A DNA stretch of 64,000 bases from Halapricum desulfuricans (GTDB lineage: Archaea > Halobacteriota > Halobacteria > Halobacteriales > Haloarculaceae): NCBI RefSeq assembly GCF_017094505.1, contig NZ_CP064787.1, positions 2,232,001-2,296,000 of the forward strand, read 5' to 3'. The stretch's first letter is position 1, and each line of letters opens with the position of its first letter. A program made the position numbers and the translations under genes. This document shows, in pieces, positions 14,923 to 23,449 of the stretch. Below the pieces are notes generated by a model that worked only from the letters and a program-made list of their open reading frames with translations, was not told where the DNA came from and ran no database searches.

Positions 14923-15543
14923 TCAATCAGCACTGGCACTCGCGGAAGCGTACTTTCCTGACGAGAGGTCGAACGCCTCGCCGTCGAAGGTGGCGACGAC
15001 TTCACAGAGATTCGAGAAGAGCGCTCGCAGTTCGGCCCCGGAGGTAGTACTATCGAGGTAGTACGCGCCCAGTGCCTCCGCGCGACGGGCCCGCTCGCTC
15101 ATCAGGTGCAGGAACTTGAACAGCGGTTCTCGTTCGACGAACTGTAGCAGCGCCGAGATCGAGTGCAGGCAGACGCCGACCCGTTCGTCGTTCCCCTGCA
15201 GCAGGTCGTCCATCGCCGTCCCCAGCGCCGTCAGATCTTCCGGATCGGCGACTGTCGTCACTGACGACGGGCGGTCGCCGGCGGTACTGGCGCTCGTCGA
15301 CCGGGCAAGCGTCTCGACGTCGACGTACTCGACAGGCGGTACCCGTCGAGGCAACTGACGCAGCTGTCGGTCCCACTCCGCCGGCGTGTGTTCGACAGTG
15401 ACGACCCCGATCCGATCGAGATCCGCTTCGAGCAACAGTCGGGTACAGGCGAGCATCCCCGTGTCGTCGACGTTCGAGGCATCGACCAGAACGTTCGACG
15501 GCGTCTGCAAAGGCCGCTCCGAGAGTCCGCTCATCGTGGGCAC
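14923..15543 (-). CDS. RecA/KaiC-like fold protein without Walker motif (DUF7504-like)
   Basis: 206 residues (an inner ATG at 15534 is equally good). The order of strands and helices (NVLVDASNVDD..., RIGVVTVEHT, ERVGVCLHSISALLQF) resembles degenerate RecA/KaiC-like domains that haloarchaea place beside CHAT proteases and small membrane proteins; no P-loop is seen. I assign it to the DUF7504-like group from memory. Divergent from the DUF7503-like gene across an AT-rich 200-base gap. Confidence 0.6.
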   Translation of the reverse strand: MPTMSGLSERPLQTPSNVLVDASNVDDTGMLACTRLLLEADLDRIGVVTVEHTPAEWDRQLRQLPRRVPPVEYVDVETLARSTSASTAGDRPSSVTTVADPEDLTALGTAMDDLLQGNDERVGVCLHSISALLQFVEREPLFKFLHLMSERARRAEALGAYYLDSTTSGAELRALFSNLCEVVATFDGEAFDLSSGKYASASASAD

Positions 15544-15663
15544 CTCTGTCCACCCGGGCTCATGTTACAGAAACAGATACCCTGCAATCTCAAGAGTGTT
15601 ATGCCGATACGCGCGAGATGACAACGGAGTATCCTGTCAGGGCCTGTATCCGGGCTCGATTCG

Positions 15664-15715
15664 CAGCCATTATATCGCAAATATACTATAATAATTATTT
15701 AGAAAAATTCAATTC
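15664..15715. promoter_or_regulatory. AT-rich divergent promoter region
   Basis: This stretch is about 80% A+T in an otherwise GC-rich region and carries several TATA-like elements (ATATACTATAATAATTATTTAG). It lies about 30 bases before the small membrane protein at 15743 and upstream of the RecA-like gene on the other strand. Confidence 0.5.
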
Positions 15716-15742
15716 AACGGGCGTCGAAGCCGTTCACGGACA

Positions 15743-15883
15743 ATGAGTCAAAGTGCGTCCTCGGTACGAAACTTCGTGGAAGAGCACCCCAAATGGATCG
15801 GCGTCCTGTTCTGGATGGCCGTGCTGCTGACCCAGGCCGGGACAGCTGCTGGCGTACATGCCAGTACGACAGCCGGCCCATGA
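15743..15883 (+). CDS. 46-residue membrane protein (DUF7503-like)
   Basis: Starts MSQSASSVRNFVEEHPKWIG, then one hydrophobic helix (GVLFWMAVLLTQAG, about 20-36) and a short Thr/Ala-rich tail ending TTAGP. The pattern (acidic HP-x-WIGV head, helix, small-residue tail) fits the haloarchaeal DUF7503 group, as I recall it. Its stop is 1 base from the convergent CHAT gene stop. Third-position GC is high, supporting real coding. Confidence 0.65.
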   Translation: MSQSASSVRNFVEEHPKWIGVLFWMAVLLTQAGTAAGVHASTTAGP

Positions 15884-15884
15884 T

Positions 15885-18032
15885 TCATTTGAACGGATAA
15901 TCTTCGCTCCAATATATTGATCCACTGACTTCTACAGGGAACCCATGATCCATAAAAAACTCCGCTCTATCTTCAGTTAGTAAATGCGGTTCGGACTCAT
16001 TACCCGATAGATAGCGTTTTACTGTCGTTCCTAACTTTGGTGTTACCATCGAGCCGATTCCATAGTTCTTCGATGGGTAAAATTGGAGACTCACAGACAT
16101 CCCTTCATCTGTGTAATCTACCTTCGCTAAATACGGGGATCCAGCTTGGCTCTCTACAATTTGTGCATTCCCATCGCCGACAATCAAGTAATGATTTCCG
16201 ACTATGCTCTTTCGCTCCAATAATTCTAGAGCTGAGAAGAGAGAAAAGCCACCATCAAGCAAATGAGCCAACATCTTCCCGAGATCCGTCGCTGTCTTGT
16301 TCAACAGGTCCGCGACAGTTACAATCCCGCCGATCGATCCCTTTTCGGCGAGCGCTCGGCCCTGTTCGTAGGACTTGCACGCGTTCAACAGGAACGCGCT
16401 GACGTTCACTTCCTCCAGCGTTCGGGCGTCGAGCCAGCCGTCACTGCACCGGATCCCTTCCTCGTCGACGTGGCCGATATAGTGGAAGAAATCGGCGTCG
16501 GTCGCCAGCACGTCTTCCATCTCGTCGGTCGTGAGCTCGTGTCGGATCGTGATGTCGAAATCGAGCCACTCTCGAGTCCCGTAAATCTCGGAGACGACGT
16601 TCTCGTCGGCCATCTCTTCTTCGTTGGAGACGACGATGACACTCGTTCGCGTGTCTTCCGAAGGCTGATATCGAAGCCGACGCATGAACGCTTCGGTGGT
16701 GAGCTTGCTGGCCCGGATCGGGACCCCGTCGCCAACGTACGCCTGTTCGATGCTGTCGGATTCCGGCGGTCGAAACACGTGCTCTTCGAACGGCCCGCTG
16801 GAACCAGACTGTGACGCCCGCGTCGAACGGATCAGCGTCGAGCGCGAGCTCTCTGAGCTCGGGCCGAAGAAGTCCTCAACCGTCGCTAGCCCGTCGTGAA
16901 CCGAACGCGACTCGATATCCGTTTCTGTTTGGGTCCTGATCTTGGCAAGATCGTTCGCCAAGAAGGGCAAGGTTTCGGCGTGCTCCGGTTTCGGAACGAC
17001 GTCGGCGGTGAGTTTCCACCGCGGGACGGCGTCCTCGATGTCCTCGAATGGGATCGACAGGTAGGTCCGGACCTGTGCTGCGGTCGGCTGGTCGTACAGC
17101 GCCTCGAAGTCAAGGTCGACAGCGTCTTCGACGACGTTTCGCTCATGTAAGTCGACCGTGTAGTACCCCTCAGTTCGGGTGACACAGTCCATGAGAAAGA
17201 CCTGTTCGAGCACCCGGGCGACGGTCGACTCGAAACCGCCGTCGGCAGTCAACGAGAATGTCTCTCCGTCTGCGTGTAACTGCGGCCGATCGCCCGGGAC
17301 GACTGTCGCGCCTAAGTAGTAGGCCAGTGATGTGATCGGATAGATGTAGTCTCGTTCCGGCGGAACTTCGATCCGAATACCAGTGTCAGGAACGTCGAGT
17401 ACGTCCGGGATATCGAGTTCCTCTCCGCGTTCGAGCAGTGGCGGGTGCCCTCGCAGCGTCGGGAACGATCGTTCAGAGGAAGTGGTTTTCAGCGCCGATC
17501 CGAACGCCGAGATCGCGGCCATCAAGTCCTCTGGATCATCCGTCGTCGTGATCGTCGCTGCCGGCTGTTCGTGCAGGGACCGGACACCGATCGACACACA
17601 GTCAGTCTCACCGAAGTCCAGCCGTATTCGGTCTTCTCCGGCGCTGACCCGTACACCACCCTCGACCGCAATGTAGAGTTTCATCTGGGCGGACGAAACT
17701 TCTAAATTGTACTTCCCCGGTGGAACTGCTATCGACTCTTCGTCAGTGCTTTGCGCGATCAGTTCACCGTCCATGTCCCGGACCCAAATGTCGACGAGGT
17801 ACGGCGTCTCGATTTCGGTCGTGCAGACGGATACGGCAGTGTCGACGGGGAAATAGAACTCGTCGGGGTTACCCGGCGTCGGTTCGACCGGAGCAGGCGT
17901 CAACAGCGTGAACTGCGAACCCTCAATCGGGTCGACGATGCGGACGCCGTCGAACAGCGGATGTGGCTGCACCTGCGGGTGCGTGCCGTCCGCCCCTGTC
18001 TGTCCGCCGTGTTCCGACCAGTTCGTAGTCAC
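15885..18032 (-). CDS. CHAT-domain (caspase-like) protease
   Basis: 715 residues from a GTG at 18032 preceded by GGGGAG; an in-frame ATG at 18134 would add 34 residues overlapping the upstream small ORF. The catalytic dyad is visible: FHYIGHV (H521) and LLNACKSYEQG (C552), with the CHAT block GGIVTVADLLNK after it. The N-terminal 450 residues are not recognised and probably sense or dock a partner. CHAT proteases cleave proteins in programmed-death and defence settings. The last ~125 codons (15885-16260) are clearly more AT-rich than the rest. Confidence 0.8.
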   Translation of the reverse strand: MTTNWSEHGGQTGADGTHPQVQPHPLFDGVRIVDPIEGSQFTLLTPAPVEPTPGNPDEFYFPVDTAVSVCTTEIETPYLVDIWVRDMDGELIAQSTDEESIAVPPGKYNLEVSSAQMKLYIAVEGGVRVSAGEDRIRLDFGETDCVSIGVRSLHEQPAATITTTDDPEDLMAAISAFGSALKTTSSERSFPTLRGHPPLLERGEELDIPDVLDVPDTGIRIEVPPERDYIYPITSLAYYLGATVVPGDRPQLHADGETFSLTADGGFESTVARVLEQVFLMDCVTRTEGYYTVDLHERNVVEDAVDLDFEALYDQPTAAQVRTYLSIPFEDIEDAVPRWKLTADVVPKPEHAETLPFLANDLAKIRTQTETDIESRSVHDGLATVEDFFGPSSESSRSTLIRSTRASQSGSSGPFEEHVFRPPESDSIEQAYVGDGVPIRASKLTTEAFMRRLRYQPSEDTRTSVIVVSNEEEMADENVVSEIYGTREWLDFDITIRHELTTDEMEDVLATDADFFHYIGHVDEEGIRCSDGWLDARTLEEVNVSAFLLNACKSYEQGRALAEKGSIGGIVTVADLLNKTATDLGKMLAHLLDGGFSLFSALELLERKSIVGNHYLIVGDGNAQIVESQAGSPYLAKVDYTDEGMSVSLQFYPSKNYGIGSMVTPKLGTTVKRYLSGNESEPHLLTEDRAEFFMDHGFPVEVSGSIYWSEDYPFK

Positions 18033-18048
18033 GATCGTCGCTCCCCTG

Positions 18049-18234
18049 TCATCCGCTCGCTGATTCCGTCTGTCTGTCGGTCCCGGCGATCTGCTCCCGA
18101 TAGCGCTCGTCGCTGCGTCCCATCGAGAGTACACGACTCACCGTCTCGCGGCGGATTCCATCGCACGTTTTGTACGTACGTGTGCGAATCAAAAACGCTG
18201 CCGGTGCCCACTCTATTGTCTGTTCATCAGACAC
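18049..18234 (-). CDS. 61-residue ORF upstream of the CHAT gene
   Basis: Starts MSDEQTIEWAPAAFL and ends 16 bases before the CHAT GTG. Contains a possible helix pair (GIRRETVSRVLS). Codon use is plausible but not strongly haloarchaeal. Listed because it lies in the position of a co-transcribed partner; it may be non-coding. Its start is next to the repeat at 18243. Confidence 0.35.
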   Translation of the reverse strand: MSDEQTIEWAPAAFLIRTRTYKTCDGIRRETVSRVLSMGRSDERYREQIAGTDRQTESASG

Positions 18235-18242
18235 AAACCTTG

Positions 18243-18324
18243 ATAGTGATTACTGTACCGATTTACCGGCACGACCGCATCACTTCGTGCGGTCGACCCG
18301 GAACGGACTTACAGAGATCACTCT
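18243..18324. repeat. MITE-like palindromic element, family 1, copy A
   Basis: 82 bp. Terminal inverted repeats AGTGATTACTGTA / TACAGAGATCACT (11 of 13 positions pair) enclose a central CGACCGCA/TGCGGTCG hairpin. Matches copies at 32823 and 41041 (inverted) and a degenerate one at 46580. Confidence 0.7.
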
Positions 18325-18350
18325 GAGACACTGCCGCCCCAATCAGACCC

Positions 18351-18999
18351 ATGCATACGGACAGCGACTCCTCGCATCAGAACCAGCCGCTAGAGACTGC
18401 CGGAACACCGCCCGAGGACGCCACGGCGGTGATGATTCCCCTTCACGGTCGAGGGGCGACAGCTCGATGTATCCTCCAGTTGCCCGATCAGTTCGACGTC
18501 GAGGGGTCGCGTATCTTGCCCCGCAGGCCGCCGGCAACACCTGGTATCCCGATCCGTTCACTGCGCCCGTCGAGCCCAACGAACCCGGGCGCACCTCCGC
18601 GCTGCGCGCGATCGACGACGCGACCGCCACGGCCGAAGCGGCCGGCGTAGCAAGGGATCGAATCGTGGTCCACGGTTTCTCAGAGGAGGCGTGTCTGGCC
18701 AGCGAATCCGTCGCCCGGAACCCTGATCGATACGGCGGACTCGTTGCACTGGGCGGTAGGCTCATCGGGGAATCGATCGCTCCCGACGAGTACGAGGGCG
18801 ATCTCGAGGGGACTCCGGTCTTCATAGGTGTAGCGATGGCGATCCCTACATCCCTGCTGAACGCGCCGACGAGCCTGCGGGCGTTTTCGAACGGCTCGGC
18901 GGGGACGTGACGAAGCGACTGTACGAGAGAATGGGTCACGGCATCAACGGCGACGAAATACAGTTCGTGTCCGAGTTGCTTGCCGGTCTCACCGACTGA
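18351..18999 (+). pseudogene. Phospholipase/carboxylesterase-family pseudogene
   Basis: The alpha/beta hydrolase is spread over three frames: 18351 to ~18506, ~18507 to ~18829, ~18830 to 18999. Each joint fits a single deleted base (a G in GAGGGG at 18501-18506; a T in GGTGT near 18829). The nucleophile elbow is GFSEEA instead of G-x-S-x-G, a further sign of decay. The C-terminal RLYERMGHGINGDEI and LLAGLTD are intact in the third frame. Haloarchaeal intact relatives are about 215 residues. Confidence 0.8.
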
Positions 19000-21424: not shown

Positions 21425-23449
21425 ATGATCCTCTCGGACGCGGACATTCTACGACGGCTGGAGAAGGGCGATCTGGTGATCGAGCCACTCGACGATCCGG
21501 ACATCCAGATCCAGCCCGCCAGCGTCGATCTCCGCCTGGGACGGGAGTTCCTGGAGTTTCAGCGAACGAACATCCCCAGTATTCATCCGAACAGCGAGCA
21601 GGAGGTCGAGGAGTACGTCGAGGAAACGGTCGTCGAAGAGGCAGAAGAGTTCATTCTCCATCCCGGCGATTTCGTGCTCGGCACGACACACGAGCGCGTC
21701 GAGATCCCGGACGATTTGATCGCCCACGTCGAGGGACGGTCGTCGCTGGGCCGGTTGGCGATCGTGGTCCACGCCTCACTCCCGTACGACGAGGAAGTGT
21801 TCCTGTGGACACCAGCGGATGGATTCGGGTTTTACGAGATAGGTGACGTCGTTGAAAACGAGCGCCCAGCGCGAGCTGTGGCATTCGATCCGAAGACGCT
21901 GCGGGTCAGTACGCACCGTGTTACCGATTACATTACGAACCCAACACAACGGATCTACCGAGTGACGCTCGACTCGGGACGACAGGTTCACGTCACGAAA
22001 GATCACAACCTGTTCACACTCGATAGAGACGGTGGCGTCACCCGTATCCCCAGTGAGGACGCTGAGGGAGCGCAGGTCATGGTCCCGAAGCAACTCCCTG
22101 GATCGCCGACCGAGCATCGTTCGATCGACGTTCTCGATCACGTCGAGCCGACGGAAACGACGTTATATGCCACAGACGGGTTCGGATTTGTCGATTCCGC
22201 GGGAATGGCACAGGGTTCGGAACGACATTACGATGCCAACGGAAGCGCGCCGATGGAAGCGGTACCGAAGATCACAATGCCAGACGATGTTGAAGTCGCG
22301 TTCCGACAGAGCGACTATCGTCTCCCGCGTGAACTCCCGCTGACCCGCGAATTCGGTTGGATGCTCGGGTTCTATATCGCGGAAGGGTCGGCTCGACGAA
22401 AGCAGATTCAGGTGGCAAACACCGAACGCCAGTATCTAAACCGATTCAGAGAGTTCTTCGCACAGTACGACGCGTCGATCTCGATTCGGCAAACGGATAA
22501 TCTCACTCGACTTACTGTCTGTTCGGCGCTCTGGTCTGCGGTTGTTCGTAGTCTTGCAGGGGCTGGCAGCGAGAAAACGATCCCCGAGTCGGCATTTGGT
22601 TGGCCCCGTGACACCCTCGAAGGGCTGCTTGAAGGGTTGCTCGATGGAGATGGGTGCCGTCGCGACGAGCGTGATACTTTCTACACTGCCAACGAGGAGC
22701 TGGCGAACAAGGTCATGTATCTCGCGGCTCGCCTTGGGAAGGTCGGCTCTCTCTACAGCAGGGAACGGAAACAATATATCGAGATGAGCGATGTCGAATG
22801 GGAGGGGGAAATGTGGAGCGTCGACGTGAGTGGTGAACGGCACAAACGGAGTCAGTACGTACCCGTCCCGAGTGACTATTTACGCGAGCTTCGGAAGAGA
22901 GCTGGACTCACGATGGACGAAGCAGCAGATCTGATGGGTTATTCGTCGAAGTCCAGCATTTCCAACGTCGAGAACGAGGAGTACGATACCATCAAGCGCG
23001 ATACGCTCCGTCGGTTCTGTGACGCGTACGGTGGAACTGGCGTCGAGACGACGCGATTGGATCAGATACTCGATGGTGGTGTTCGGTTCGAGGAAGTCGT
23101 ATCCGTAGAAGAGACAGAACGTGTCGAACCGACGTATGACCTCGAGGTCCAGCCCAACGGCGAGGCTATCGAGAACTTCCTTGGCGGGCGTGGCGGCGTA
23201 TTCCTCTCGAACACGGCCGGACTCTGCGACCCGGGATACAACGGCCAGATCACCCTCGAGCTGTCAAATCTCGGGACCGCTCCGGTGGCACTCTCGCCCG
23301 GGATGCGGATCTCGCAGCTGACGTTCACCGAGCTAAAATCGCCGGCCGAGCGACCATATGGCGAGGAGCGCGGATCGAAATATCAGGATCAGGAAGGGCC
23401 ACAGGCGTCGAAGATACAGGGCGATCGGGAGTTCGGAGGCGACCAATGA
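21425..23449 (+). CDS. dcd: dCTP deaminase interrupted by an intein
   Basis: 674 residues before splicing. Exteins 1-117 and 597-674 give a 195-residue Dcd: N-part [20 protein letters not shown] and [15 protein letters not shown]-part [17 protein letters not shown]. Dcd deaminates dCTP to dUTP. The intein splits the conserved [12 protein letters not shown] active-site stretch, so activity requires splicing. The last codons (EFGGDQ-stop) are repeated five times just downstream. Confidence 0.93.
21776..23212 (+). mobile_element. Dcd intein with LAGLIDADG endonuclease and XRE HTH
   Basis: 479 residues (118-596). Block [11 protein letters not shown] begins with Ser1; block B has T191-x2-H194 ([10 protein letters not shown]); LAGLIDADG motifs are LGFYIAEGS (314-322) and [10 protein letters not shown] (401-410). 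An XRE/Cro-type HTH at about 484-520 ([20 protein letters not shown]) sits between the endonuclease and the C-terminal block. It ends FLSN, with Ser in place of the usual penultimate His, and the +1 extein residue is Thr. Confidence 0.9.

Follow-up and report, generated by a model that had tools for sequence, protein, structure and literature searches.

Haloarchaea carry a conserved genetic module whose three parts were established by sequence comparison: a CHAT/separase-like cysteine protease, a convergently encoded DUF7503 micropeptide and, in many loci, a RecA/KaiC-like DUF7504 protein. We interpret the module as a proteolytic signalling unit with R-S cleavage and DUF7503 input, a reading that we hold tentatively, at somewhat less than an even chance. 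It is preferred because of the near-core spread of the protease, the exclusive convergence of DUF7503 with CHAT genes, the invariant catalytic dyad, a confident clan-CD structure model, a linker motif far above shuffled expectation, the loop Arg of DUF7504, and the purifying selection, fixed C-terminus and conserved promoter element of DUF7503.

The module was examined in a 64,000-nucleotide stretch of the Halapricum desulfuricans genome (hereafter the window). Between leuD and pyruvate kinase, the genes follow in the order DUF7504 (14923–15543, minus strand, 206 aa), DUF7503 (15743–15883, plus strand, 46 aa) and protease (15885–18032, minus strand, 715 aa from a GTG start at 18032), so that ilvC-leuC-leuD flank the module on one side and pyruvate kinase on the other. 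A sequence-only reading of this DNA had described CHAT-type, 46-aa one-helix and RecA/KaiC-like reading frames, and all three were found at these positions. Its observation that the stop codons of DUF7503 (15881–15883, plus) and the protease (15885–15887, minus) lie 1 base apart was confirmed, and the two genes are therefore convergent. That reading had also placed a 61-aa ORF (18049–18234, minus strand) in the module. In the nearest relative, G109, this ORF was 55% identical as protein and 82% identical as DNA, and it was hardly detectable in the next relative. Because its protein identity trails its DNA identity and it is hardly found beyond G109, it is probably not a gene and we place it outside the module. 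A lack of co-occurrence elsewhere would have counted against that reading; the protease, DUF7503 and DUF7504 do co-occur in other genomes, which gives strong support for a linked module of these three genes. Positions 18170–18910 of the window hold a phospholipase/carboxylesterase remnant split between frames (partial PF02230 match), probably a pseudogene, and a dCTP deaminase gene at 21425–23449 contains an intein carrying LAGLIDADG-like and HTH domains.

The protease comprises an N-terminal beta domain, an alpha/beta region, a disordered linker, a catalytic domain and a C-terminal beta domain. Its reading frame can also be entered at an upstream GTG (18134), giving 749 aa; the start at 18032 is backed by relatives, as G109 has a stop codon just upstream and the GTG is kept in both G109 and G262. 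An AlphaFold2 model built with 66 homologues reached a mean pLDDT of 88.5 and a pTM of 0.90. Its best solved-structure neighbours in Foldseek were gingipain RgpB and separases (E 2e-6 to 9e-4), with procaspase-3 as a weaker match, and a search of solved structures by sequence alone returned no match. As modelled, the fold is of the CHAT/separase/gingipain type, caspase-like and belonging to clan CD. The Pfam CHAT family PF12770 was not matched by the window protein; 17 of the 66 homologues matched it at E values up to 0.1 (best 3.7e-5). The catalytic His lies in the motif HYIGH (16470–16472, minus; H521 of 715 or H555 of 749) and the catalytic Cys in LLNAC (16377–16379, minus; C552 of 715 or C586 of 749). 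The sequence-only reading had called the H521/C552 dyad intact, with numbering that is correct from the GTG at 18032, and had named free variation of these residues as evidence against its proposal. Such variation was not seen: among the non-gap rows of 149 aligned homologue rows, His was present in 146/146 and Cys in 146/147, the dyad thus being invariant apart from one Ser.

A protease homologue was detected in 268 of 293 Halobacteriales genomes, with copy numbers as lower bounds, since scoring was limited to the three top candidates in each genome. DUF7503 was detected in 249 of the 293, and in a phylum-wide sample all DUF7503 matches listed fell inside Halobacteriales. Across 61 neighbourhoods, picked partly via protease and partly via DUF7503 matches, every DUF7503 gene (62/62) was convergent with a CHAT gene, mostly with gaps of −17 to ~100 nt. 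When loci were selected by one partner only, DUF7503 was present in 30/30 protease-selected loci and the protease in 30/30 DUF7503-selected loci, both sets being the best matches of each search. Protease patterns alone fetched 80 named loci (from Natrinema, Haloarcula, Haloferax, Halorussus, Halococcus and others); 74 carried DUF7503, convergent in every case, and one of the six loci without it was interrupted by a contig end. DUF7504 is a looser, though frequent, third member of the module: it occurred within ~4 kb in 21 of the 80 named loci and in the vicinity of 28 of the 30 protease loci from the closest relatives, either upstream or downstream.

Extra copies were found on plasmids and in large genomes. 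Protease homologues occurred on 25 plasmid records (Halorussus, Haladaptatus, Natronococcus and others), where the usual annotation is hypothetical protein, and specialised paralogues could exist among the plasmid copies. Most of the additional DUF7503 genes in four multi-copy genomes had their own protease, and eight had none within 1.5 kb. Five DUF7503-like ORFs of G180, probably Halospeciosus flavus (L171, L174, L177, L179 and L182), had no protease within 1.5 kb; they are embedded in a dispersed repeat with a length of at least ~250–400 bp and retain the Gly-Pro end. Tandem DUF7503 pairs behind a single protease gene were observed at L158/L162 (G056) and L207.

The 46-aa ORF matched the DUF7503 profile (PF24335) with 61 bits against a cut-off of 27 (E 7.8e-17). 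DUF7503 proteins consist of an n-region with a basic residue at its end, an h-region of 11–12 residues, an SQAGxAA c-region and a tail of 7–10 residues. In the window, the hydrophobic core IGVLFWMAVLL (15797–15829, plus) occupies conserved columns of a signal-peptide-like leader, and the variable tail GVHASTTAGP (15851–15880, plus) closes with the near-invariant Gly-Pro. This C-terminus was present in 187 of 195 distinct DUF7503 sequences, and because all four codons of each residue are used there, the constraint acts on the protein. In close pairs, pN/pS was 0.08–0.24 in the leader and 0.21–0.38 in the tail; it fell to 0 at Gly-Pro, where pN was about 0 and pS 0.43–0.66. These features mark DUF7503 as truly coding and under purifying selection. 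It also has its own conserved promoter-like element, an AT-rich sequence upstream of the gene (15693–15714, plus; consensus AATATTTAGATAAATTTATTTC) that starts 42–50 nt 5' of the DUF7503 ATG in 55 of 62 loci and had a mean score of 18.0 versus 9.3–9.8 in shuffles.

Several of these features would also suit a secreted signalling-peptide precursor. Signal peptidase would cut DUF7503 after A-X-A and free a Gly-Pro peptide of 7–10 residues, to which the CHAT protein would respond in the cytosol by Rap-Phr-like logic. The n/h/c anatomy agrees with this, as do A or V at −3 and 90% Ala at −1 of the predicted cleavage site, and the leader is conserved while the tail is variable (entropy 2.5–3.4 bits) up to its fixed end. 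Tail pN was also several-fold higher than leader pN, and the tails of paralogous pairs within one genome differ. However, an uncleaved membrane anchor would explain the hydrophobic stretch just as well, selection on the tail is purifying (pN/pS 0.2–0.6) rather than diversifying, and neither an import system nor a peptide-binding domain was identified. We consider the secreted precursor possible, if rather unlikely. The sequence-only reading had suggested that the module may be membrane-linked, and the single hydrophobic stretch of DUF7503 makes such a link plausible, but a cleaved secreted peptide fits equally well.

Directly before the catalytic domain of the protease lies its disordered, hypervariable linker (16803–16886, minus; model residues 360–387, pLDDT <50), which varies in length and sequence across homologues. 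The pattern [FLIVMYTAD][TVILA]R[SGA] was present in 128 of 144 distinct linkers, compared with 25 on average and at most 38 across 300 shuffles; as the linkers come from related proteins, this comparison reflects conservation over a variable background and not independent origins. The preferred form is [FL]-[VT]-R-S-[AT]-[ST], with the consensus core [FL][VT]-R-S-[AT]. In the window the motif reads LIRSTRAS, and its Arg (16827–16829, minus) marks what we infer to be a candidate self-processing site. Off-motif linkers, such as FMRSAS and FTRHS, were seen among L117, L118, L241, L253 and L262; no Arg motif of this kind occurs in the two Halococcus linkers, L253 and L262, and the L253 locus is also without DUF7503. 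Gingipain R and separases are Arg-specific. The linker motif and these fold neighbours suggest a putative Arg specificity of the haloarchaeal protease.

A different account makes DUF7503 a mere membrane anchor or chaperone for its partner, and the protease a housekeeping enzyme that might explain the caspase-like activity seen in Haloferax volcanii, for which no gene was known (PMC3615174). The tight DUF7503–protease linkage agrees with this; a DUF7503 match is present in H. volcanii, and the protease occurs in nine Haloferax species. A guessed location of the H. volcanii gene near HVO_2688 was looked up and gave no confirmation. However, the H. volcanii activity prefers substrates with Asp at P1, and extracts left trypsin and papain substrates uncut (PMC3615174), in conflict with the Arg motif. 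The protease is a candidate for this activity by family, though not a well-fitting one, as the Asp preference argues against it. Anchoring alone would also leave the fixed Gly-Pro end unexplained, and we regard this account as improbable.

The sequence-only reading had suggested a possible cell-death or defence system, a role that is not supported here. In one such system, infection would trigger the protease and DUF7503 would damage the membrane. CHAT proteases occur in the defence systems Borvo and type III-E CRISPR (PMC10952713), membranes could be a target of a peptide with a single helix, and extra copies sit on plasmids and in large genomes, but we find this role hard to credit given the near-core spread (268/293), the metabolic neighbours in the window, the absence of any PADLOC match to a known defence system among 66 homologues, the search of viral contigs, which found no protease relatives, and the fixed Gly-Pro end and conserved promoter element, both unexpected for a simple pore peptide.

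The third protein matched the DUF7504 profile (PF24336) with 80 bits against a cut-off of 27 (E 3.8e-22). Its model (pLDDT 86.7) had PH0250, FlaH and KaiC as Foldseek neighbours, indicating a RecA/KaiC fold, and the Walker A motif GxxxxGK[ST] was absent from the window protein and its aligned relatives, in agreement with the earlier description of a RecA/KaiC-like protein lacking a P-loop. At one loop position, R81 in the window (LARSTSAS; 15301–15303, minus), Arg was invariant in CHAT-adjacent DUF7504 proteins (73/73), with Ser as the next residue in 54 and S, G, A or N in 69; this is a candidate cleavage site. The R-S-[ATV] signature common to the protease linker and DUF7504 suggests that one factor recognises both, the simplest candidate being the protease. 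The same Arg loop feature was present in 16 of 21 non-adjacent close paralogues. We rejected the idea that the R-S motif is kept solely in CHAT genomes, as non-adjacent best-match DUF7504 proteins showed no difference between genomes with (2/20) and without (2/18) CHAT; a 30-locus comparison, in a set that mixes subfamilies, gave 6 versus 8. Because genomes without the protease gave no contrast, we treat the link between protease and DUF7504 as hypothetical, and the shared motif may instead reflect DUF7504 subfamily history. DUF7504 also cannot be the sole target, since it is adjacent in just 21 of the 80 named loci.

In the proteolytic signalling unit that we favour, the protease would be cytosolic and restrained until a signal arrives. 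It would then cleave itself behind the linker Arg, at [FL][VT]-R-S-[AT] in the disordered stretch, and would cleave adjacent DUF7504 at the matching invariant R-S loop, altering the signalling state of that protein. DUF7503, whether membrane-bound or set free from the membrane, would be a candidate regulatory input, acting as activator, inhibitor or anchor. A precedent among CHAT proteases is Csx29, which cuts the neighbour-encoded regulator Csx30 inside a flexible loop (PMC10028731). That the module forms an archaeal cell-to-cell circuit, in which each CHAT protease has a secreted Gly-Pro micropeptide as its own partner and cleaves a KaiC-like sensor at the motif of the protease's activation site, is a long shot.

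In Pfam, DUF7503 and DUF7504 are listed only as families of unknown function. The sequence-only reading had supposed the system to be undescribed, and the open-access literature searched, with few subscription papers, contained no description and did not name DUF7503, DUF7504 or a haloarchaeal CHAT protein; a description elsewhere is possible. What is new here, at the level of sequence, is the [FL][VT]-R-S-[AT] linker motif together with the invariant loop Arg of protease-adjacent DUF7504. Regulated proteolysis in archaea would gain a concrete genetic entry point from a caspase-like protease that is near-core in haloarchaea and has a dedicated micropeptide partner. The proposed reading also names the exact residues at which cleavage is predicted, and a tractable model organism is at hand for testing them.

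Among known systems, separases and gingipain R resemble the protease in fold and His-Cys dyad, and the linker motif suggests a similar Arg specificity, but identity is only ~10–15%, the N-terminal regions differ, and the protease is archaeal and found without a cohesin or secretion context. Csx29 (TPR-CHAT) with Csx30 offers the same combination of a CHAT protease and a neighbour-encoded substrate, a candidate one here, with its site in a flexible loop (PMC10028731). That type III-E system (Craspase) is CRISPR-linked, whereas the present module is near-core, has DUF7503 and DUF7504 as partners and shows no Cas7-11, TPR, Csx30 or sigma factor at this locus. The anti-phage system Borvo resembles the module in having a CHAT-type domain (PMC10952713), but none of the 66 homologues matched PADLOC, and the protease studied here is near-core and has a micropeptide partner. 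DUF7504 is similar in fold to KaiC, FlaH and other RecA-like proteins, but has the R-S loop instead of Walker A. In Rap-Phr systems, a small signal-peptide-like gene with a variable C-terminus is paired with the 3' end of a gene for a cytosolic protein. The DUF7503–protease pair is similar in having a small variable-tail gene at the 3' end of a cytosolic-protein gene, a likeness known here from precursor anatomy; Rap-Phr genes, however, are co-directional with a TPR receptor, whereas DUF7503 is convergent with the protease.
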